This document shows, piece by piece, positions 31,533-44,124 of a stretch of 64,000 nt of DNA. Every line of letters begins with the position of its first letter. Position 1 is the stretch's first letter. The stretch lies in the NCBI GenBank assembly GCA_021234155.1, contig JAJEKV010000002.1:21603726-21667725 (forward strand). The letters run 5' to 3'. Origin of the DNA: Isoetes taiwanensis (Eukaryota; Streptophyta; Lycopodiopsida; Isoetales; Isoetaceae). The position numbers and the translations under genes were made by a program. The notes beneath the pieces are model-generated. The model ran no database searches, was not told the origin of the DNA, and saw only the letters and a program-made list of their open reading frames with translations.

Positions 31533-34500
31533 ATGGTTCACACTAGAAACAAAACTCCCATCCCATTTGTTCCTCTAGCTTACACACCACCAAAGAGAAG
31601 GCGACAGAAGCATTCACATTCACTGGAGGTATCCAAAGAAGAAACAAAATCTATAGCCCCCGATCTAGTGTTAACCGAATCAGCAATGACCAAAGATATA
31701 AAAAGTCCAATGGCAAAGAAAGGCAAACCAAGTGATGTTCAGGATATGACTGCCACTGATCCAGAATTTGCACAGGTGAGTGGTTCTCGAATTGGATCAT
31801 TTTCTTTTTCTCCCCGTGAAATATTTAATCATGAACTTTGTATAGGTTTTTGCTCACGAGATGGTGGCTGACATAATGAGCAAATGTCGCATTGAGAGAG
31901 GAACAGAGCCTCCCAAGATTCCCCTTTGTCGTGTTTTGCGAAATGAAGCCGTGCGTCCAGTCTCAAAATCTGATACTAAGATGAGGGATATACTTCGTAA
32001 TGATGGATATTTACCTGAGAAGGGAAAATTTGTGCTATCTATGAAATCCATTAAGGGATGTGATGTTCCAGTTACGGACTCTATTCGCTCTAAATGGGAT
32101 GATTACTGGAATGAAGTTAACGATGACTTTGAGAAGGAACTTGAAGCTTCCGAGGAGTGGAAGGACTTGTCAGGTAAAATGTTCCTTTGTTGGGATGGTA
32201 ACCATAGAACAGTAGCATGGATGGGGGAGGTACGTTACAACCATCAATTCTGTTATGAGAAGAGCAGGCACATTCGAGTCGAAGTGTCTTTCATTGACGT
32301 GGAGAAGTGTCATGTTCAACAACTCATTTCGGCCCTCAATAGAGTTAACGAGTAAGTGGGTTGAATGTTTTGCATTGTTATGGTTTTGAATTTTGTTGAT
32401 GATTTTCATGTGTATTTCAGGTTGAATGAAGATGGTGTTGTTCATAACACAATGAAGGATACAATATATAGTGTCCACAAAATTGTACAGCAAATCCAGA
32501 GCAATATTTTTCCAAACTGGATCCTCAATAGTTGGCTACATTAAAGATTAAAGATAATGCTTTTTCCAGCACTGGCACGGAACAATGGTATCAATTACCA
32601 CGTTTGGCTTACTACAAGATACTATTCCAGGTTACATGACATACTTGTTTATTAACCCTTTTAAATTTATTGTCCTCATTTGTGTGCTCATAACAAATTG
32701 GATTGTCCTTGTAATTGTGATAGAGACAAATGGATAAGGAGATAGCAGTTGAATTGGCAGCAGCAAAAGTGAGTGATGACAAAGAGGCCTTGCGGACAAC
32801 AGCCACAAGAAGGGTCCAAGATAAATGGGTACAGAAAATGGGAAAGTTGCTTGCCATAGTCAATCCTGCATTGGGTCCAAGTTGGTTAGATGCTGTTACT
32901 AGAGCTGATTTTGACACCAAAGCTTCGCGATTGTCCATTGAAAAGTTGCTTGACATGGTGAAGGCTAAGGTACCCAATGACATAAGAGATCGTTGGGTGC
33001 ATTGGATGTCGTCTGGGTCTGCTATCCACAGCACGTATGGGATGCCTAAGGGTGACAAAAGCTTTAAGGACTGGATAAAAAAGGAAGTTTGGTTGGAGCA
33101 CTTGGTTAAGAAGTCTTGTGGTCTTCACTGAGACTTCTGCAATATATCAATTGCAGATTCAAGTTCCACATGGTGCAGACCTGGAAAGTTGGTTCCGAGC
33201 CTTCAAATTAAAGAACAGAGCCAATATGTTCAAGCCATATCACAAACATATGTCTGCAACTACGGCTCCTGTCTCTTCCTATGAGATAGATAGAAGTTCA
33301 AGAAGAGTAGCCTACAGGTATAAAAGTTTCTGCATTTATTTCTCTTGTAAGAATCCGTCTAAATGTTATGTGCAATTTTGCAGATATTACATACACATTC
33401 TCAGTGAAATTTTTTTAGCAAATCTTCCAACTGAATTGGAATGTTGGAAGTCCTCAGATGAAAATTCCATGTGCTCAAAAAAGGGGAACTTGGATAGGCC
33501 AGGTGGTCTAAGTGATTATGAAGCTCAAAATTGTTTTTGGTGGATAGATTTTGCTAGTGGAGAATATCCATTAAGTGAGGAGGAAGAGTATAAGGCAAAT
33601 GTGAAAGTTTCAGTGCTCAAGAGCAAAGTGGATTCTAGTGAAAAGATAAAAAGAAGTTTGGATGCTCCAATCGATAAAAGAGATGTGAAAAGAAAGAGAA
33701 AAAATCAAGAAAAGTCACAAGCGTCTGGTACATAATTTTACTCATTTTTTTGCATTCATGTGAATATAGATCTTTCACAAACATGTGACACTTTCTTAAA
33801 CATGTGGCAGCTACTGCAACAATTGATTTGGATTTATCCGAGGCTACTTCAGAGGAAGATGTCCAATATTTTGACATTGCCAAGGTGGTTACAAACACTT
33901 CGCTTGAATTGCATTGTGGAGACATTTTGAGTACGTATGAACAATATTCAAAGAAGATAGAAGCTCCAGTTTTTCAAAATGTTAGAGATTTTGCAAAGAG
34001 AAATGCTAGGAAGTCGCATGAGTATAAGAGAGGTGGTAATGTCAGGGATTGGGGGTTTGAGTTAATATTTATTGATTTCCCTACAAATAACATGTCATGC
34101 GGGGAAGATTTTGAGATTCCTCCATGGAACGTATGCAACACTTCTTTAATCCAAGCCTCTTTCTCGTTCGGCACATTGTGCCTTGATGATGATGGCTGGT
34201 TGGTCTCCATTTCTTCGGTTGAACAAGCAAGAATAGTGGAGAGGCCTTTAGAACTTGCTACTTGCATCAGGATGCCCCTTTCGGATACATAAAGGACAGA
34301 ATTGGGAAGTTCACAAGCAACGTGTTGCTAGTGACTGTATGGTCAAGAAAGGGTACTTCACCAAGCATTTAGAGTAATGTTCAGTTCTCAAGTAAGTGAT
34401 CTTCAATTTTTTCTATTACATTATAAGCTATCTTATTTGATGTGTATTGATTTTATGTTTTAGTTTTACTATATCTGGTTTCATGTTTTATTAATATTTG

Positions 34501-34890
34501 TCCATTTCAGACAAACGTCTTTCAATCTCCAATCTATCTCTTGCTCATTTCTTCATGGAAGGCAGTAAACTTACAGCAAGTCCTACTACGCCTGGTAGGA
34601 AATCCACCGAGAAGTCCATTTCTTTCATGGAGTTTATTATTGAGAATTTTAGTCCAAGAGAAGGCTTGGTATTGGACCTACTTAGCGGCACAGGTTCAGC
34701 ATTGGTAGCATCTGCTATTTTATCTCGTCACTGCTATGGATTAGACAATGATAAACTGTTAGTGGATCATGTAAAGGCATCTCGTCTTTCAGGCTTAGCA
34801 AGTGTTTCACAAAGGTTTGATAAAAGGAACATTGATCATCCCGAGGATTCAGACGACGAAGTGGCAGAGGAAGATGAAGAACCTTCATAG
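31533..34890 (+). pseudogene. ParB-like / beta-class N4-N6 DNA methyltransferase-like gene
   Basis: Exon-like blocks: 31533-31775, 31846-32351, 32421-about 32620, about 32727-33130, 33147-33318, about 33383-33735, 33811-about 34370 and 34511-34890. Most have GT-AG borders. Block 2 holds MFLCWDGNHRTVAWM, matching the DGxxR motif of ParB-like domains. Block 7 holds FELIFIDFPT, in the place of catalytic motif IV ([S/D/N]PPY/W) but degenerate. The last block has KSTEKS, then GLVLDLLSGTGSALVASAIL and HCYGLDND, a clear SAM-binding motif I in the motif IV-before-I order of beta-class enzymes. ParB plus methylase pairings are common in phages and bacteria. Frameshifts near 32500-32530, 33110-33150 and 34260 indicate decay or unmodelled splicing. 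4mC methyltransferases are known from liverworts, but homology is untested. Confidence 0.6.
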
Positions 34891-35429: not shown

Positions 35430-35590
35430 TAAGAAGCTTGGTGACAATAGCAATTTGTGATATGAAAATAGAAGATGCTCAATCACAAAGGAAATTCTGG
35501 AAAAAGTTGAATAAAGTGATGATATCTAAGGGTTACGAGCCTGCTCAATTTCATGGATTTATGGCTGATGAAGCTCAGGCAAATTGGATA

Positions 35591-35698
35591 TGTGACGTCC
35601 CCTACTCGTATACGGTGCACTCACCGTATACAAACAGGAGTTCACCCCCCATACCAGCTCCATGCTGATACAAGGCCCTCCACGTATCACTGCAACCT
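35591..35698 (-). repeat. Remnant 3' LTR (108 bp)
   Basis: Nearly identical to 38816-38923 (shares ATACAAACAGGAGTTCA and CCATGCTGATACAAGGCCCT), then diverges abruptly into the C-terminal coding sequence of the minus-strand frame. Confidence 0.85.
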
Positions 35699-36683
35699 CG
35701 TTCCCGCATTCCTCGTGACAGCTTCGATCCAGCTTTCCTGGCTTTCGGCTTCTTGGGGGGGAATAGGCTTCTCTGGAGGTGGATTGAGAGTCTGCTTCTT
35801 CGTTGGCCGTCCTCCTTCGACATAGGTCACCTTGTTCGCCTGGCAGTAGAAGTTGTAGGCCTCCCACTTCTTCATGAACTCCTGGTGTGCCTTCAACTTC
35901 TTCTGGTAGACCCTGAGATGGTCTACCACGTAAGATTCTCGAGCAGGCCGGGGCGGCTTCTTGGTGTCCTTGTCTTTCTCCCATGTCGGGTAGGACGGGG
36001 GTACCTGCACCTGTGGTTCCTGGTCCGTCCGCTCCTCATCTGGGGGCTTGGAGGAGCTCCCTCCCTCTGGATGAGAATTGTAATCCTCATCGTCTGAGTC
36101 ATCCTAGGATGGGGGCTTGTCGGGGGGGTCGTTCCTCGATGACGATCTTTGTCATCGGGGTCTTCTTCGTCTTCCTCTTGGGCTCCTCCACGTTTTTGCC
36201 CTTGAGCTTCTTCTTGGCTTCCGCCTCCTTGGCCTCCTTTGCCTCTTCTCTTTTCCTCTTCTTCTCGGCCTTCTTCTCGCGGCGTCGTGCTTTTGCCTCG
36301 TGCATCTTGATCCAGACCTCGAGCTCTTCCTCTACTGTTGGCTCGGGGGTGGGCTCCTGTGCCTTGGCCTCCTGCTCTCGTTCTGCCCTTTCTTGTTTTT
36401 CCTTCTCCATCTGCTCGAACACTCTCTGGATTTGGTCGTCCTCTGCTCCAAGATCTGCTTCCTCGTCTGCCTGCTGGTTGAAGACGTCAACCTGCTCTCC
36501 TTGCGATCCTTGCTCGGATCTCTCCTCCTGTTGCTCCTCTGAAGTGCTCTCCTCGCCTGATGAAGGTTGGTCCCCTCTCGCGAGAAGTCGCTCCCAAAGC
36601 AGCTGCTGTATGTGCCTCCTGTCTTGGGCGCTAGACGTTTCACCTGATCGATATTTCCGAGCAGTCTGTTTGGTTCGCGCCAC
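35687..36683 (-). pseudogene. Retroelement protein with a histone H3 tail-like N terminus
   Basis: Reading leftward from 36683, codons give x-ARTKQTARK-YRSGET. The nine residues after the first codon are identical to histone H3 residues 1-9 (R2, K4, R8, K9 included). The first codon is GTG, with a TAA two codons upstream, so a former ATG may have mutated. The rest is charged: an acidic Glu/Gln-rich stretch, a predicted coiled coil (about residues 85-110) and a Lys/Arg-rich stretch (KAEKKRKREEAKEAKEAEAK). It stops at 36099. A second frame (36010-35687) continues with DHLRVYQKKLKAHQEFMKKW and ends at the truncated LTR. There is no core histone fold. The role may be chromatin targeting; this is inference. 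Confidence 0.7.
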
Positions 36684-36897
36684 GTCTTACTTCACGTCAA
36701 ACGGAGGTCGGGCGCCCAAAAATTGCCTCGAAGTGTGGAGCTAACTTCTAGACAGGAAGTCTACAAATGAGAGGGGTTTGGCTCTATTTATAGTTTGGGC
36801 GAATTTTAGGTCAAATTCTAAGTTTATCATTTACATGTGCCAAAGCGCCTATTAGCCTATAACATGTACTTACTTCAGAGTTTTCTAATTGAATTTA

Positions 36898-36960
36898 CTC
36901 ATGGTGTGCGTTGGGGGCCTGATCTAATATTTAGATCAAGGCTCTGGCGCATACCGTGAG
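36898..36960 (+). other. 63-bp covarying hairpin, copy 1
   Basis: Outer arms CTCATGGTGTGCG and CGCATACCGTGAG pair with two G.U wobbles in the plus-strand RNA. GCCT (36917-36920) pairs with AGGC (36939-36942). The inner stem GATCTAA/TTAGATC closes a TAT loop. See copy 2 at 38543. Confidence 0.75.
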
Positions 36961-37074
36961 CACTTTTGCATTTTTGACTAAATTATATGATTTCTAGGCA
37001 TATTCCTAGGGGTATGATATACGAATCTAACTAATTCTTGCCTTAAAACTCGATGAGCTCACTGGATTCTATCA

Positions 37075-37086
37075 TGGTATCAGAGC
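37075..37086 (+). other. Plus-strand primer-binding site
   Basis: TGGTATCAGAGC is the plant retroelement primer site complementary to initiator Met-tRNA. It follows ATCA, a plausible LTR end, so a plus-oriented LTR probably ends near 37074. Its left edge was not found. Confidence 0.6.
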
Positions 37087-37099
37087 CTACATGAAGAAG

Positions 37100-38080
37100 G
37101 AAGAGAGTGTAGGATCGATCTGGTTTTGATCAGCAAAAATTTTCAAGAAAATTTGCTTTTGGAGCCAAGCTTTCAAGGGCTGGATCAGATTGACACCGGG
37201 CAGCATCCTGGTGTAATCTGGATCGGAGGAATTCGAGCTGATTTCTTGGCAAGAGTTTCTTGCAAGATCAATTAGTTGAAAGGCAGCTTTGCCTTGACAT
37301 CTTCTTTGAAGCGGGATTCAGTTTTTTAGTGAAGATTTAGTGGAATATGGCAAGCCAAGAACTGGCTACGATTTGCAAGCATTAGGGTTCGTTTCTTTGC
37401 AAGAAGGGGTGATTATAAGACAGGATGTCTTGGATCGGACAAATTTCATGAAGATTTGTGGATCTGTAAATTTTTTTCGGCTGTAGAGGGCAGATTTGTT
37501 TGACGATTCATTTACAAACACAGGCATAGACTGGGAGCTTTGCAAATTGGATGGAATCTGTGTTGATTTGGTGGATCCAAAGGTTCCGTGCCAAATAGAT
37601 TGGCCTGATGGCTTGATTAGCAGCACCAGCAAGGGGGGCAGCATCAACGCGTTGTGCAAGAGCAGCAGGAGTAGCAGATGTAGCAGCAGCGGAAAAAGAA
37701 GCAGCCCAAGGGGTATCAGGACATGCAATGGGCGAAACGGTAGAACATGCTGAGCAAAAGTGGTCGTGCAGAAGCAGTAGTATCAGCATCAGCTTCAACA
37801 TTGGGTGCAGCAATAGCTCTGAGAGCCCTACTAGCAGTCGTGGCAGCAGCAACCCGCGGAGTTTTAGTAGCTCTGTGCATGGCATCCCCGACCTTAGCAT
37901 TGGGTGGCTTGAACACTCGTGCTTTGCTTTCGACCAAGGCCACTGCGTCTCTGGTGCAGTTGATGGTCCGCACACGAGCTAGCTCCCTTCAACGTTGTTT
38001 CTATTGTCGAGGGGTGAGGTCATGATCGATATACATTGAGGTGCCCTTTAGTTTCAGCCACTAGCATAGTATGGCATCTC
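37100..38080. other. Retroelement interior, uncertain coding
   Basis: Long Ala/Ser/Leu-rich open stretches on both strands (37496-38025) reflect AGCAGC-type codon repeats. None has a recognised domain, and the coding strand cannot be decided. Confidence 0.35.
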
Positions 38081-38524
38081 TTACCAATGCATCGGCAACT
38101 GTGAATTTGGCAATGTGTGGGCAGTCTGGGTGTTGAACACAGAGACGGCTATCCTGGGCAATGTCTTGGAGGGTCTGGAGGTGTTGGTATTGTGCCTCAC
38201 TGGCTGCCTATAAGGTCTTTTGGACTGTAGCTGCCCTCTCTTCTGCCTCTGTGCGGAGAGGCAAAAGATATGTCTAGGTCTCCTGCTCGAAATGATATCC
38301 ATTCTGGCAAACAGGGTTTCAAGGGTAGTATGCAGATCCGCAAGTCGCGCTCTGTCTTGCTGCCTTTCAACGTGTGCTAGGCGAAGGTCATCCTCAAATT
38401 GTTGGATGCGAGTCTCCATGCTGGAAACACGCTGCTTTTTTGTGGTGAGGTGCTTTTTAAGCAGTCTGGGCATGGAGGCTTGCACTTCTTCTGTCAAATA
38501 TGCAAAAAATTCATCAAGTTTCAA
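38081..38524 (-). pseudogene. Gag-like N terminus, Ty3-type
   Basis: LDEFFAYLTEEVQASMPRLL is followed by a heptad-like helix (METRIQQFEDDLRLAHVERQ, then LHTTLETLFARMD), resembling the N-terminal coiled coil of plant Ty3 Gag proteins. It is located about 280 bp inside the primer site at 38802-38813, where gag is expected for the leftward element. There is no upstream ATG before a stop (the first codon is TTG), and no zinc knuckle was found downstream. Confidence 0.5.
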
Positions 38525-38542
38525 GGTGTTTATGGCCAGTTA

Positions 38543-38605
38543 CTCATGGTGTGCGCCTGGGGCTAAACCTAAATTTTAGGTTGGTGCTCTGGCGCATACC
38601 GTGAG
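38543..38605 (+). other. 63-bp covarying hairpin, copy 2
   Basis: The 13-nt outer arms are the same as at 36898-36960. The inner stem is AACCTAAA/TTTAGGTT, different in sequence from copy 1 but equally paired. Identical total length. Confidence 0.75.
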
Positions 38606-38801
38606 ACATTTCCACATTTGGTCAAAATTTAATTCAACTTTTTAGTTTTCTTGGTTTCCAATTCTTCTAACTGTTACTAGCTTAGCATAACTACAAAAAA
38701 TGAGAAAAAAAATTTCCCACTTTTTCGAGGTTTGAGAATTCTACTAAGTTAGTACTACTGGGAGCATGGCCAGTGCTTTGCTCTTTGTCTCCAAGAACAT
38801 T

Positions 38802-38813
38802 GCTCTGATACCA
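38802..38813 (-). other. Minus-strand primer-binding site
   Basis: GCTCTGATACCA, the reverse complement of TGGTATCAGAGC, lies 2 bp from the LTR edge at 38816 and sets the leftward orientation of the element. Confidence 0.85.
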
Positions 38814-38815
38814 CT

Positions 38816-40392
38816 GTGACGTCCCCTACTCGTATATGGTGCACTCACCGTATACAAACAGGAGTTCATCCCCTATACCAGCTCCATGCTGATACAAGGC
38901 CCTCCACGTGTCACTACAACCTTGATGAGTTCCAGTGGGAAGAATGAAGGGGTCATTTTACCCTGTCTCCCTTCAGGGCCTGCCTAGCTGCAGAAGCATA
39001 AACATACATGTCAGTATACAACATCAACATCACATGACCATCACGAAGGATGGCTCACCACATATCTGCATAGACAAAGATCAACACATCATATATGGAG
39101 ATCCTACCCAAGGCTCAGACTCAAAGGGGATGACTGACGGCTTGGGCCTTCAGAAGTCATTGCAGACAGAATTCATGGCAATGGATTCGGCTGGCATAAG
39201 AACATGGCTTATGGTAGTCCACTCCATCCGCCCCTCCTGTGCACACTTTGCAGAGTAGGATGAAAAGTGTTGGGACCTGACTGTAGCTCGCCGGGTGCAT
39301 AGCCAAAGGCTATTCCTGGGTTGCATCTCCCCAGTCCCGATAGGGCAGGTAGGGATCACTCCCACCAGAGACTATCATGCTGGTTCAAGGTGACTAGAGG
39401 GCCACTGCCCGTACTCGACTTGAACTCCATGGAAGGTGTCCACCACCCCAAGAGTGTTGAACCCATGCAAAGCCCGCTCGCAGTGGCAGAGCATTAGGTC
39501 TAGTGCACTGTAGTCCCCGATAGGCTTTATTATCAGAGGGACGTGATCATGAACCAGGACATGAACCTCCTTGTAAGCCAGTCTGGCCCCTTCACCCACA
39601 ACCAGGTGTGGTTCTTGTACACATGCCGAATTTAATAGTGCATTAAAGAGGGCTAGCTAGGAGCATCATACTACTAGGCTTTTAAGGCCTCTACCCCCCT
39701 TCCCAATACAATGAGTCCACAGAGATCATCATCACATACATATCATAGAAAAACTAAAGAATAAGATTTAATCTAAATCACAGAGTTAGGTTCTTTATGG
39801 CTTGATATCTAGAGGTCTAGATGGCTACTATGGGCAAATCAATAGGCTAAACCTACTTACTCTATGTCTGGGAGGTGGTTTAGACTATTGAATTGGCAAA
39901 ATACCTGATCCCTGGCTTGCTCCTCCTGTTCTGAACGCATCCATGCTATAGAATTGCTCGAAGATGAAGCTAGAAAGGGAAGCTGATGAGCTAGGCTGCT
40001 CAGACAGATTCTGGGAGTTGGGATTGGCTCCTGGAGCAAGGGCAAGCAAAACAGAGTTCTAGAAGGTTGTGGACGAAAATGAAAAGTTAGGGTTCCTATG
40101 CCTTATAAAGACTATAAGTTAGAGATGGGCTTCCATTATCCCTTGAGCATGTGGGACAAATGGGTATGGCCCACTTGCCTATATTAATTAAGTGGCCTAA
40201 GGTATACACATGAATAAATGTGTACATATGAATAAATGTGCACATGAATAAATGTGCACACACTTGCAAGTTGCCCCCTAGGGTGCTACTTGCTTGGGTA
40301 CACGTCGGCGTGCACGTCAATCAGGATGGCGTGTACGTGTGACGAGGCAATACAGTATACGTCCGGACCGTATACTGTGCTGGAACATCACA
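38816..40392 (-). repeat. 5' LTR of the Ty3-like element (1577 bp)
   Basis: It runs from TGTGACGTCC to ACATCACA. It contains a palindromic ATACAGTATACGTCCGGACC segment near its end and a CTTATAAAG TATA-like box (about 40102). The part CGCCGGGTGCATAGCCAAAGG (39288 on) is shared with the LTR at 43050-44124, showing one LTR family. Confidence 0.8.
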
Positions 40393-41967
40393 TGATAGCA
40401 GTTAGAGATGTTTTATTTGAAGGTAAAGAAGTGTGTGAAAAAGAGCGCTCTTGTGTCTTTCACTTTGAACAATGTATGCAGAGGCAGGCCAAGAAGCATC
40501 TCAGTCCTGAATATAGAGAGGAGTTTATGAAAGTCTGCAGAGAATGGAGAAACTCAGATAATCCAAATGAATTGTACCTTTATATGACATGTTGTCTTCT
40601 AGAGAAGGCTTCTGCATCAAATGTCAATGCATTGTGTTCGTGGATGGCTTGGTGGCATCAGAGAGTGAGCCGATGGGGAAATTATATGAAAGCTTGTGCC
40701 TCAATAGAAGATGCTATGCATATACCTGATACTAATTTGTCTGAAAGTAGACATGCAAGTTGGTTAGCAGCTACAGGTTATAAAAAAAACTTTAACTCTG
40801 TATGATGCTAATTTGTCTGATTTGACAGAAGCTATCTTACAAAGTAGTAAATACAAGTCACACCTCGACCATAACTTTGTTGGATCAGGACCAGGAATAT
40901 CTACACTTTTCTCAAGGTTGCAAGGTAGATTAAGTAGTGGGATCAGGAGTAAGGAGGTTACTGATGCAGTTATTCAGGAAGTTAGCAGACAGGGTTTACC
41001 AATATTTCAGTGTGGTTATGGTGGGAATGATCAAACAATATCAAAGAGAAAATGCATGAACAGCTCCACAACCATAGGTGAGTTTGGAACACATAGACCA
41101 GATAAGCAAGCAAGAAATATACCTAGAGTAGCATGAACAGATCCAGTAGTCAAAAATTTATTTGGGTCAAATTCTATTGACGTCAATGAGAGAGAAATCT
41201 TTGATACCAACTGGGCCATTCGTAGAACAAATGTTGGCAGTAAAGTGAGATGTCAAGGCAGGGTTTCAGTAAATGGTAAAAAATGTGACAAATTGATTAA
41301 CAAGGGCCTATCATCAGTTGCAGCGCCATCATATTATGGTATAAGGTCTTATAGAGGAGGAACATGCGAGCAATTTTTTTGGTTTTGTCCTGATAAATAT
41401 AGGTGCACATGGTACCCAAATGCTGATATGGTTTCCACATCCAATCGTCCTGTTTTGTGGCCAGTACATAAGGGTGTCAAACTTAAGCCTAACGAGCTCG
41501 AGACTTTGGAAAAAGGTGGCTATAATCTGGAAGGATTGAGTAGAACCACATATACCCATCAAAATGAAGATGTTCAGTATGTTCACAGTTCTGGAAGTCA
41601 ATGCTTTGTCATGAGACGTGATGGTAAGCATGTAAACAGAAGGACTAAACTTAGTAGAGTTGCATAACTAAATTTGGAGCAAAGCAAAGACATGGATGTC
41701 TCAGTTCTAAGTAATGTGATTGTTCATAAGAGACATGTGGACTTCAGTTTGAATAGAAATGGCAATGTGTATATTGTTAGCATCAAGAAAGAGCCTTCAT
41801 GCACCTGTCCTAATTATCAGAAGAGGGTTGCAAAGGGAAGCTTCATCCCATGCAAGCATATGTTCTACATCTTCCAGTCAGAGCTTCACAGAGATCCCTC
41901 CATTGACATGTCACTCCAACCAGTGTTTAGTGACGATCTTCTGGATAGCTTATTGCATGTCTTTTAA

Positions 41968-42411
41968 CAGAGTTACAACTCATTTCGCTTTATGGAACTA
42001 ATGTTTGTTGGATTTTAATAAACATTATGTGATTGGTAGTTTTACATTGATTGATTTCTTACATTGTAATTAAACATTGCCAACCACTTTGCAACTATGA
42101 ACATTCTAGGCTTTAAATGCTATATGGTCTTACTTATACTCGTAGCATAGTACATTAATCATTGTAGTACTTTTTACAAAACCAGAAATAAAAAGAAGCA
42201 GTTAAACTAAATGATATTGCCAAAAAACGTAATTGTAATAGTCTAAAATAACTTCAAAATATAATCTTTGAACATGAAATCAAATCTTACTTTAAAATAT
42301 AAGCTTCGAACTTGAAATCAAATCTTACTTATACTCGTAGCATAATACATTAATCACATTGTAGTACTTTTTGATAACTTTCTAACTTGAGGGATAAAGA
42401 CCATAAGACCA
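41968..42411. other. 3' flank of transposase copy 2
   Basis: AT-rich. CTTACTTATACTCGTAGCAT occurs twice (about 42128 and 42330), giving a direct repeat of about 200 bp. Confidence 0.5.
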
Positions 42412-43045
42412 TTATAAAAAGGACCACAAAAAAATTGCACTCTTCACAAGGTATTGGAGAAATTTGAATCTTCTTGTCTTCTTATAGGCCCTGTCAAGAA
42501 GAACCTCAGGGACGATTTCAAGCTGGTCGTCCGTCATTTCTAGTAACTCGGTTATCTCCAATACTTCCCCTGGATTAGGAGTATGCCTCTTTAGGAGACT
42601 TACATGGAAGACCCTATGGATTTTGAGATGTGCTGGCAGGTCCAACTTGTAGGATTGGGTACCTACTCTTTTGGTTATTCTGAAAGGTCCAGCCCATCTT
42701 GGAGCAAGCTTCTTGCAATTGCCGATGCGGAGCTTGGTCTGCTTCACCTTTATCTTCAACCACACATTGTCTCCCACCTGAAATTCCCTTACCGTTCTAT
42801 GCTTATCGGCTACGCTTTTCTGCCTACTTCTCGCTGCTAGAAGGTAACCTCTTACCTCCTCCACCAATTGCTGCATATTCGATAACATCTGCTGGGAGAC
42901 TTCCACTTTTGACACTGGGTTGTGCCAAGTATCTGGGGTAAGACATTGATACCCAGAATTAATCATGAAAGGAGACATCTGCGATGACTCCTGCTTAGTG
43001 TTGTTGTAGGCAAACTCTACTAAGTGGATGAAATCTTCCCACTTA
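42412..43045 (-). pseudogene. Ty3-type integrase C-terminal remnant
   Basis: Reads VGDNVWLKIKVKQTKLR, then KLAPRWAGPFRITKRVG and HRVFHVSLLKRHTPNPGEV, the standard end of Ty3 integrases with a degenerate chromodomain-like tail (DDQLEIVPEVLLDR). RT, RNase H and the integrase catalytic core are missing. It is fused directly to LTR sequence at about 43047. Confidence 0.85.
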
Positions 43046-43049
43046 AACC

Positions 43050-44124
43050 GTAGTCTGCCGGGTGCATAGCCAAAGGGGCTACTGCTGGGTTACATCTCCC
43101 CAGTCCCGATGAGGCAGGAGGAGAGTCTCCTCCCCTCCAGAGGCATGCATGCCCATCACAGGCGGCTAGAGGGCCACTGCGCGTATTCGACTTGAACCCC
43201 ATTGAAGGTGATGCATCACCCAAGAGGTGTCGAGCTCATGCCTTGCCCACACGCAGTGGCAAACCATTAAGCCTAGCCCACTAAGATCCCCGGTAGGCTT
43301 TACACACCAGAGGGATCAGTCTGCGATGGGACAAGTCCTCCTTGTCAACCGGTCTAGCCCCGCCACCCACAACCAGGCGGGCTCCTGTGCACGGGCCGCA
43401 TTAATTGGGTATTAATGAGGCTATCTAGGAACATCTGCTACAGAGGCTTTTAGGGTCTCTACCCCCCTTCCCAATACACGGGAGAGCATAGAATGAACAC
43501 CGTAATCATCAAAGAGCTGAATTGTAGAATAACATCTAATCTATCTAACCTACACATCCAAAGTTAGGTTCTTTTGTTAGAGCTTATGATCTCGGGATCT
43601 ATAAGGCCTCTAAGGCTGAACTAACATGCAAAACCAGCTCATTGCCAAGCTAAACGACGGCTTTGCACAACAAAATGGGCACCTGACTTGCTCCAGATCC
43701 TTGGAATGCATCTATGCTTCTGATCCTGTTGAAGACTGCTGCTGCTGGAAGATCTGTTGCGCAAGGGCGGCTTTTCAGAGCCTGGCAATGCGAACTAGAG
43801 TCCTGGCTTGGCCGGAATGGCTTTGTGAAACCCTAATTGTGAAAAAGGAAGAAGGGTTTAGGGTTTAAGGGGAAAGCCCTTATATAGAAACCCTTAGGGT
43901 TAGGTTAACATTGGCCAAATGGGGTTTTGCCATTTGGCATGGGGTTTATATAGTTGCATATGTTTATCAAACATGCACAATATACGAGGTTGCCCCCTAG
44001 GTGCAATACTTGCCCCCTATGTGCAACCCTCTACGTCTCGCTAGTACTTGTCATGATGACATGTACGTGTGACGTGGTAGTATAATATATGTATTTGGGG
44101 CATATATTATACTAGAATGTCACA
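43050..44124 (-). repeat. Truncated LTR related to 38816-40392
   Basis: It shares GCCGGGTGCATAGCCAAAGG, CTCCCCAGTCCCGAT and a similar end (GCCCCCTAGG...ACGTGTGACG...TGTCACA). Its inner end is lost at the integrase junction. The palindrome CATATATTATACTA replaces that of the other LTR near the terminus. Confidence 0.75.

Follow-up and report, generated by a model that had tools for sequence, protein, structure and literature searches.

Why should a reading frame in a quillwort retroelement begin with the first nine residues of histone H3? Such a frame lies in the window examined here, a stretch of 64,000 nucleotides of Isoetes taiwanensis DNA (contig JAJEKV010000002.1, positions 21,603,726 to 21,667,725), and an initial annotation had called the match exact and very unlikely to be due to chance. 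Translation confirms the match and places it on the minus strand, which the annotation had left unstated: the frame reads D-V-ARTKQTARKYRSGETSSAQDRR..., with ARTKQTARK at 36680-36654. It then continues YRSGETSSAQ... as far as a stop codon at 36101-36099, 195 codons when counted from 36686. The interval 35687-36683 had been taken as a single frame, and it is not one; it is interrupted by this stop, and a further piece of the protein, at 35992-35786, lies in another frame. The features of the insertion that carries the frame, and of a neighboring remnant, are given below in window coordinates.

35586..35590, no strand: left target-site duplication GGATA, identical to the right one at 4 of 5 bases (flank comparison)
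35591..35698, minus: end fragment of the 3' LTR (its last 108 bp), fused straight to linker coding sequence (95% to 38815-38922)
35786..35992, minus: what is left of the H3-variant protein's conserved middle domain, in a different frame (58% identity over 69 aligned positions)
36099..36683, minus: initial open stretch of the interrupted H3-variant ORF, comprising the tail and a charged linker, terminated by the stop (translation, genome search)
36654..36680, minus: ARTKQTARK, exactly H3 residues 1-9, after a GTG codon (V, 36683-36681) (translation, genome pattern count, copy comparison)
36895..36984, minus: leader hairpin repeat, first copy, z -5.85 (repeat search and folding)
37048..38506, no strand: later insertion within the leader, borders approximate (flank spacing in relatives)
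38540..38629, minus: leader hairpin repeat, second copy, z -4.10 (repeat search and folding)
38802..38813, minus: primer binding site TGGTATCAGAGC adjoining the 5' LTR (sequence; L054, L056 and L093 have this motif too, behind an LTR-like end)
38815..40392, minus: 5' LTR, 1.6 kb (repeat and alignment comparison, target-site duplication)
40393..40397, no strand: right target-site duplication TGATA (flank comparison)
42443..43044, minus: separate remnant of the same element family, integrase C-terminus with a Tf2-1-like SH3 domain (alignment, Pfam)
43047..43478, minus: LTR piece of this second, integrase remnant, 73-94% to parts of related LTRs (repeat and alignment comparison)

The whole insertion extends from 35591 to 40392, and joining its flanks restores an open frame; target-site duplications were examined in this copy. 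The copy lacks gag, pol, most of the 3' LTR and the histone fold that in relatives comes after the middle domain. Pfam gives no match for the 194-aa frame, and three fold queries run by tblastn detect no histone fold within the 64-kb window. The view that the protein has no histone fold is thus correct for the truncated window copy and wrong for its relatives, which end in an H3 fold. The window copy is a dead retroelement insertion. Its Ty3-like setting, behind a primer site TGGTATCAGAGC that we take to be of the tRNA-iMet type, had been recognized correctly. A gag-like frame had also been reported ahead of the H3-like frame; in the family the H3 ORF is upstream of gag, and the one frame tested (38084-38539, minus) gives no gag match in Pfam, only a sub-cut-off match (0.055) to an unrelated family. 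As for the later insertion in the leader, its flanks are 19-58 bases apart in 8 of 11 aligned copies (L002, L003, L004, L006, L007, L008, L010 and L012), the other three being uninformative.

The insertion splits a plus-strand reading frame (window 35500-35590 and 40398-41980) that presumably resembles a MULE-type transposase; two parts of it that were tried have no Pfam match. To the left of the insertion, a broken-up plus-strand frame at window 34495-34887 contains an N6_N4_Mtase DNA methylase domain (PF01555, E=3.8e-7) and is possibly part of another mobile element.

The tail is not confined to this locus. In the genome searched (1,658,258,908 bases in 1,110 contigs), a degenerate pattern covering all codings of ARTKQTARK has 1,064 exact sites (521+543), and the reversed pattern has 0. 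ATG followed by ARTKQTAR has 1,888 exact sites (904+984), again with 0 for the reversed control. Both counts are slightly inclusive, as MGN in the pattern also admits AGY, and both include some true host H3 genes. A chance match is ruled out by these counts, with their controls of 0, and by the selection values for the tail given below. Among the ARTKQTARK matches listed, 20 sites comprise three true H3 genes (L044, L045 and L050), one unclear case (L047) and 16 that by eye are retroelement-like frames with a very different sequence after the tail. At G000:C217, three exact tail sites (120970, 126779 and 132560) lie on one strand at ~5.8-kb spacing, as a tandem element array or a segmental duplication.

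A six-frame genome search with the 194-aa frame returned at least 159 matches, with the best 150 of 12,266 first-look candidates scored. From these, 31 copies were chosen by ORF: the eleven best (L002-L012) and twenty from the weaker part of the matches listed (L013-L032), the latter picked among matches reaching query residue 1 or 2, so that the set is biased to kept N-termini. Within it, M is present in 29, A1 in 27, R2 in 28, T3 in 30, K4 in 31, Q5 in 30, T6 in 30, A7 in 29 and R8 in 28; ARTKQTAR is exact in 20, and at position 9 there are 19 copies with V, 11 with K and one with I. That the copy starting with GTG might be dead and come from an ATG family had been suggested, and this is borne out by the 29 of 31 copies that start with ATG. 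In 17 copies chosen by fold, two of which are common to both sets (L018/L072 and L025/L068), ARTKQTAR is exact in nine, K4 is kept in 16, position 9 is V in eight and K in six, and the tails of L066 and L070 are decayed. Members lacking the ARTKQTARK start had been named as a test of the initial annotation: A1-R8 is held, and K9 is not general (11/31 and 6/17). Fifty exact tails at different places have 37 distinct codings, with R2 encoded by CGN in 33 and AGR in 17, and R8 by CGN in 18 and AGR in 32. Because codings are this diverse and draw on both arginine codon families, it is the protein that is conserved in the tail and not the DNA, and a DNA-level signal is ruled out as an alternative.

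What follows the tail in relatives of the window copy is a histone. The L053 ORF encodes 416 aa from its ATG, with a Pfam Histone match at 303-411 (E=4.1e-24), and the best PDB matches of its fold by phmmer are Histone H3.2 chains (E=3.5e-24); L055 also has a Pfam Histone match (E=6.8e-23). The fold lies downstream of the tail in all five tail-bearing 10-kb loci (L053-L057). The frame from tail to fold is unbroken in L053, has an in-frame stop before an open fold in L055, and is broken in L054, L056 and L057. A genome search with the L053 fold gave a match in 150 of 150 scored (the best 150 of 9,084 first-look candidates), and in 122 of these best-scored folds, a set biased to good matches, there is no stop within the match. 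We fetched 20 loci, 17 of them fold matches with long open frames and three of them tail sites, and in 13 of the 20 the tail, linker and fold form a single frame. Together with L053 this gives 14 unbroken ORFs of 388-467 aa from ATG, with 289-368 residues from tail to fold. In this build, which we call type A, most of H3 residues 10-46 give way to a long charged linker, which contains a conserved middle domain; type A has neither the H3-like length of ~135 aa nor the S10-T45 segment, and HRYRPGT is absent before the fold. The window frame is probably the decayed N-terminal half of an H3 variant that Ty3/Gypsy LTR retrotransposons with a chromodomain encode. The tail had been proposed to recruit H3-tail readers or writers; relatives encode a whole H3 variant, tail then fold, and not a tail serving as bait, and tail-only mimicry is ruled out for the family by the fold in the same ORF.

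A check of the N terminus for purifying selection had been proposed, and such selection is seen. Across the 14 ORFs, A1-R8 shows pS of 0.738 and pN of 0.042 (NG86, Nei-Gojobori), and the resulting ratio of 0.014 is only indicative as pS is near saturation. A1, R2, K4, T6 and R8 are identical in 14 of 14, and most of the following 20 positions vary. By the same method dN/dS is 0.084 for the fold, 0.203 for the middle domain and 0.266 for the linker; choosing open ORFs, which dropped seven broken loci of 20, lowers all of these values but not the contrast between the parts.

The changes within the fold bear on what such a protein might do. C110, H113, A114, R116, D123 and L126 are residues of the H3-H3 bundle. 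In 20 type A folds, C110, A114, K115, R116, D123 and L126 are invariant, and H113 (19), R69 (19), R72 (18), R83 (19) and T118 (18) are nearly so. R63 is replaced by P and K64 by R in all 20, K122 by Q in 13, and R128 and R129 are lost in 16 and 20, respectively. As judged from these residues, pairing with H4 and the H3-H3 contact look possible, and DNA contact looks altered. Because of the changes at R63, K122, R128 and R129 and the missing HRYRPGT segment, type A nucleosomes could be unstable or not form at all.

The host elements are chromodomain-bearing Ty3/Gypsy LTR retrotransposons. The H3 ORF lies between the primer site and gag, and is followed on the same strand by a second ORF, gag, protease and reverse transcriptase (RT), RNase H, integrase and a chromodomain. 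Pfam identifies gag in L056 (Retrotrans_gag, E=3.9e-16; Ty3_capsid, 8e-15), protease and RT in L055, RNase H in L056, integrase in L054 and L057, and Chromo in L057 (E=1.5e-8, 34.8 bits vs a cut-off of 25.1), with L056 below the Chromo cut-off. By tblastn, same-strand pieces of gag and protease/RT are found in all five of L053-L057, and pieces of RNase H and integrase in four (L054-L057); no copy among the five is intact throughout. The C33 element is bracketed by LTR-like repeats that are 88% identical over 1,573 aligned positions, and the LTR-like pair of C2 is 85% identical over the 279 aligned positions in view. Between the H3 ORF and gag lies the second ORF, which is diverged and up to ~520 aa long (L056 2890-4446, L054 3045-4013, L093 3054-4499) and partly alike between loci (~29-38% over longer tblastn stretches). 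Pfam gives no match for the stretches of it that were searched (L056 2890-4446, L054 3045-4013 and two pieces of L093), and PDB gives none for L056. Six more loci of the L056 subfamily have broken tail frames, with an open fold stretch in L096 only. Compared by eye with the known cage positions, the chromodomain keeps one of three aromatic cage residues, and for that reason a loop in which the element reads K9 methylation is not supported.

Strong hairpin repeats, whose arms are specific to each family and enclose a GCGCC core, flank the H3 ORF on both sides, at 592, 806, 2476 and 2676 in L053 and at 538, 719, 2469 and 2662 in L057. These two loci have two before and two after the ORF, L055 has three and two, L054 has one and three, and L056 has two after it only. 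Six hairpin repeats that were folded have z between -4.1 and -7.1.

A second build was found by a genome search with an Arabidopsis CENH3 fold, which also matched host H3 genes. In these type B loci (L082-L094; 13 loci at 11 places, as L083/L093 and L085/L094 are the same places) a new N-terminal domain comes first, then an internal stretch, RKSTARKSGAQY for example, and finally an H3 core that carries HRYRPGT or a near variant of it. Read by eye, the ARKSG-like RKSTARKSGAQY piece appears to be the rest of an H3 tail; type B has only this internal piece, in contrast to the A1-R8 start of type A. Pfam Histone matches are strong (E=3.3e-41 for L093, 4.5e-42 for L094), and over 88 residues the type B loci share 69-78 identical residues with host H3, compared to 45-50 for 17 type A folds. 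In seven type B ORFs the H3 core has pN of 0.093 and pS of 0.818, and the rest has dN/dS of 0.237. L093 has an LTR end and primer site of the same kind as type A elements, and L094 has a decayed gag (tblastn, 42% over 132 aa, E=9e-25), so the idea that type B is wholly devoid of gag and pol is partly wrong; over the 10 kb examined for each of L093 and L094, tblastn detects neither protease/RT nor RNase H nor integrase. With the best 40 of 1,634 candidates scored, copies are present that match the L093 ORF at 99, 98 and 97% identity, and type B has therefore spread recently.

For the H3 ORF, the analysis establishes its anatomy and homology, where it sits in the element, that it is present in many copies, and that tail and fold are under purifying selection. 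An H3 gene was captured by LTR retrotransposons, in which selection appears to maintain it. Of the two origins first proposed, capture from H3 is the best supported, and convergence is contradicted by the fold in the same ORF as the tail. It is possible that one H3 capture was followed by divergence, or that there were two captures.

How might the element use its histone? We suppose that the protein would be made and lose its Met, freeing A1; that it would pair with host H4 and enter nucleosomes or nucleosome-like particles; and that it would there present a tail whose K4 can be methylated but which lacks the usual sites of K14-K36 and, in many copies, K9. Its effect may be to keep element DNA transcribable against H3K9/K27-based silencing, a use that we favor, tentatively, because type A offers K4 without the K14-K36 segment and often without K9. 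Anti-silencing as the sole use does not fit, because a sizeable fraction of copies retains K9. More speculatively, quillwort LTR retrotransposons might build their own chromatin, placing on element DNA an H3 with a K4-methylatable tail and a long spacer that either counters silencing or marks integration sites. It would be a selfish histone that is passed on and diversifies along with the element, and types A and B would represent at least two builds of it.

A role in integration is somewhat unlikely, and it is the strongest of the alternatives. The element H3 could mark chromatin for the element's own integration, the histone or its tail tethering the pre-integration complex through K4/A1 readers (PHD, WD40), possibly to nucleosomes that already hold element H3. 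Readers of this type need a free A1-R2-T3-K4 end, which is the most conserved part of the protein, and a chromodomain lies behind integrase in the same elements; however, the H3 ORF is separate from pol, and by eye that chromodomain seems to have no full aromatic cage.

It is improbable that type A arose from a centromeric CENH3 and takes the element to centromeres. This reading comes from a tree of 88-residue folds (26 element folds with identical ones removed, one host H3 and four reference sequences), in which type A groups with two plant CENH3 sequences at a support of 94, on long branches, and the main type B group joins H3 at a weak support of 51 (84 with L088). However, in an alignment with CENH3 sequences, type A has no two-residue insertion giving the longer CENH3-type loop 1, its tail start is canonical, and the L096 fold, which is outside the tree, looks by eye intermediate between canonical-like and type A folds.

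Packaging, with the histone acting like a nucleocapsid to compact the element's RNA or cDNA inside the particle, is a poor prospect. A Lys-rich linker joined to a histone fold, in an ORF that precedes gag, would suit such packaging, but it leaves unexplained why A1-R8 is conserved exactly at near-saturated synonymous change, and by eye gag seems to carry a zinc knuckle of its own.

Very doubtful is passive hitch-hiking, in which a captured H3 gene is copied without function like transduplicated gene fragments. Captured gene pieces in transposons are on record in the parts of the literature available, and many H3-ORF copies are broken, including that in the window. Against this, diverged copies have dN/dS values well under 1 in both tail and fold, the tail is kept while the linker has turned over, and the best-scored folds, biased to good matches as they are, mostly have no stop. 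Finally, a convergent tail mimic without histone ancestry, which the tail-only window copy taken alone might suggest, is practically dismissed by the H3 fold in the same ORF, in the order tail then fold.

Plant chromoviruses share with these elements gag, RT, RNase H, integrase, a chromodomain and a primer site of the tRNA-Met type, and we know of none with a histone ORF. The canonical host H3 (L044, L045 and L050) shares the A1-K9 tail and the fold with the element H3, but is 135 residues long compared to 388-467 in the element ORFs; relative to host H3, type A has its linker in place of most of residues 10-46 and type B has its new N-terminal domain. A transposon-borne H3 is on record in the fungus Pyrenophora tritici-repentis, where, according to the available part of the report, a hAT DNA transposon carries the H3-like gene H3L in 26 very similar genes that have insertions in the tail and have perhaps undergone drift (PMC3538342). 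Both systems, on that partial text, have a mobile element that carries and multiplies an H3-like gene and that exists in longer and shorter forms (PMC3538342). In contrast to the fungal DNA transposon with its terminal inverted repeats (TIRs), as described there, the quillwort elements are plant LTR retrotransposons with diverged subfamilies and a long linker, and whereas the H3L tail has insertions, the tail start A1-R8 of Isoetes type A is under strong selection. Membership of the hAT-borne H3L class, with hAT transposase between TIRs, is rejected for the elements described here, which have LTRs and Ty3-type pol.

The accessible text on the bracovirus histone H4, CpBV-H4, provides a near precedent (PMC5423620, PMC9145170); that protein is an H4 of a wasp-borne DNA virus, whereas ours is an H3 in a retroelement, known from sequence alone. 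Orchid Ty3/Gypsy elements, in the sections available, carry an AlkB-type m6A demethylase, similarly an extra captured regulatory ORF in Ty3/Gypsy, but its product is an enzyme that acts on RNA, unlike histone H3 (PMC9289625). The results section of the same source, in which LTR elements of 121 angiosperms were screened for extra domains, mentions no core histone among them (PMC9289625). The word 'histone' is absent from a review of giant transposons (PMC6431247) and from the main text, as available, of the Isoetes taiwanensis genome paper (PMC8566536). In the literature searched, to which preprints and most subscription papers do not belong, we found no report of an LTR retrotransposon that encodes a histone. 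Transposon-borne H3 is already on record, and it is the scale, the element class and the constraint that are unlike the hAT precedent.

Hosts silence retrotransposons largely through marks on the H3 tail. An element H3 whose tail end is its most constrained part would directly attack or use that silencing, and makes it testable which tail residues an element needs. The diverged element copies are in effect natural H3 variants, and show which fold residues are tolerant of change. For Isoetes taiwanensis itself, H3 gene counts and histone annotation in the genome may be inflated by these elements.
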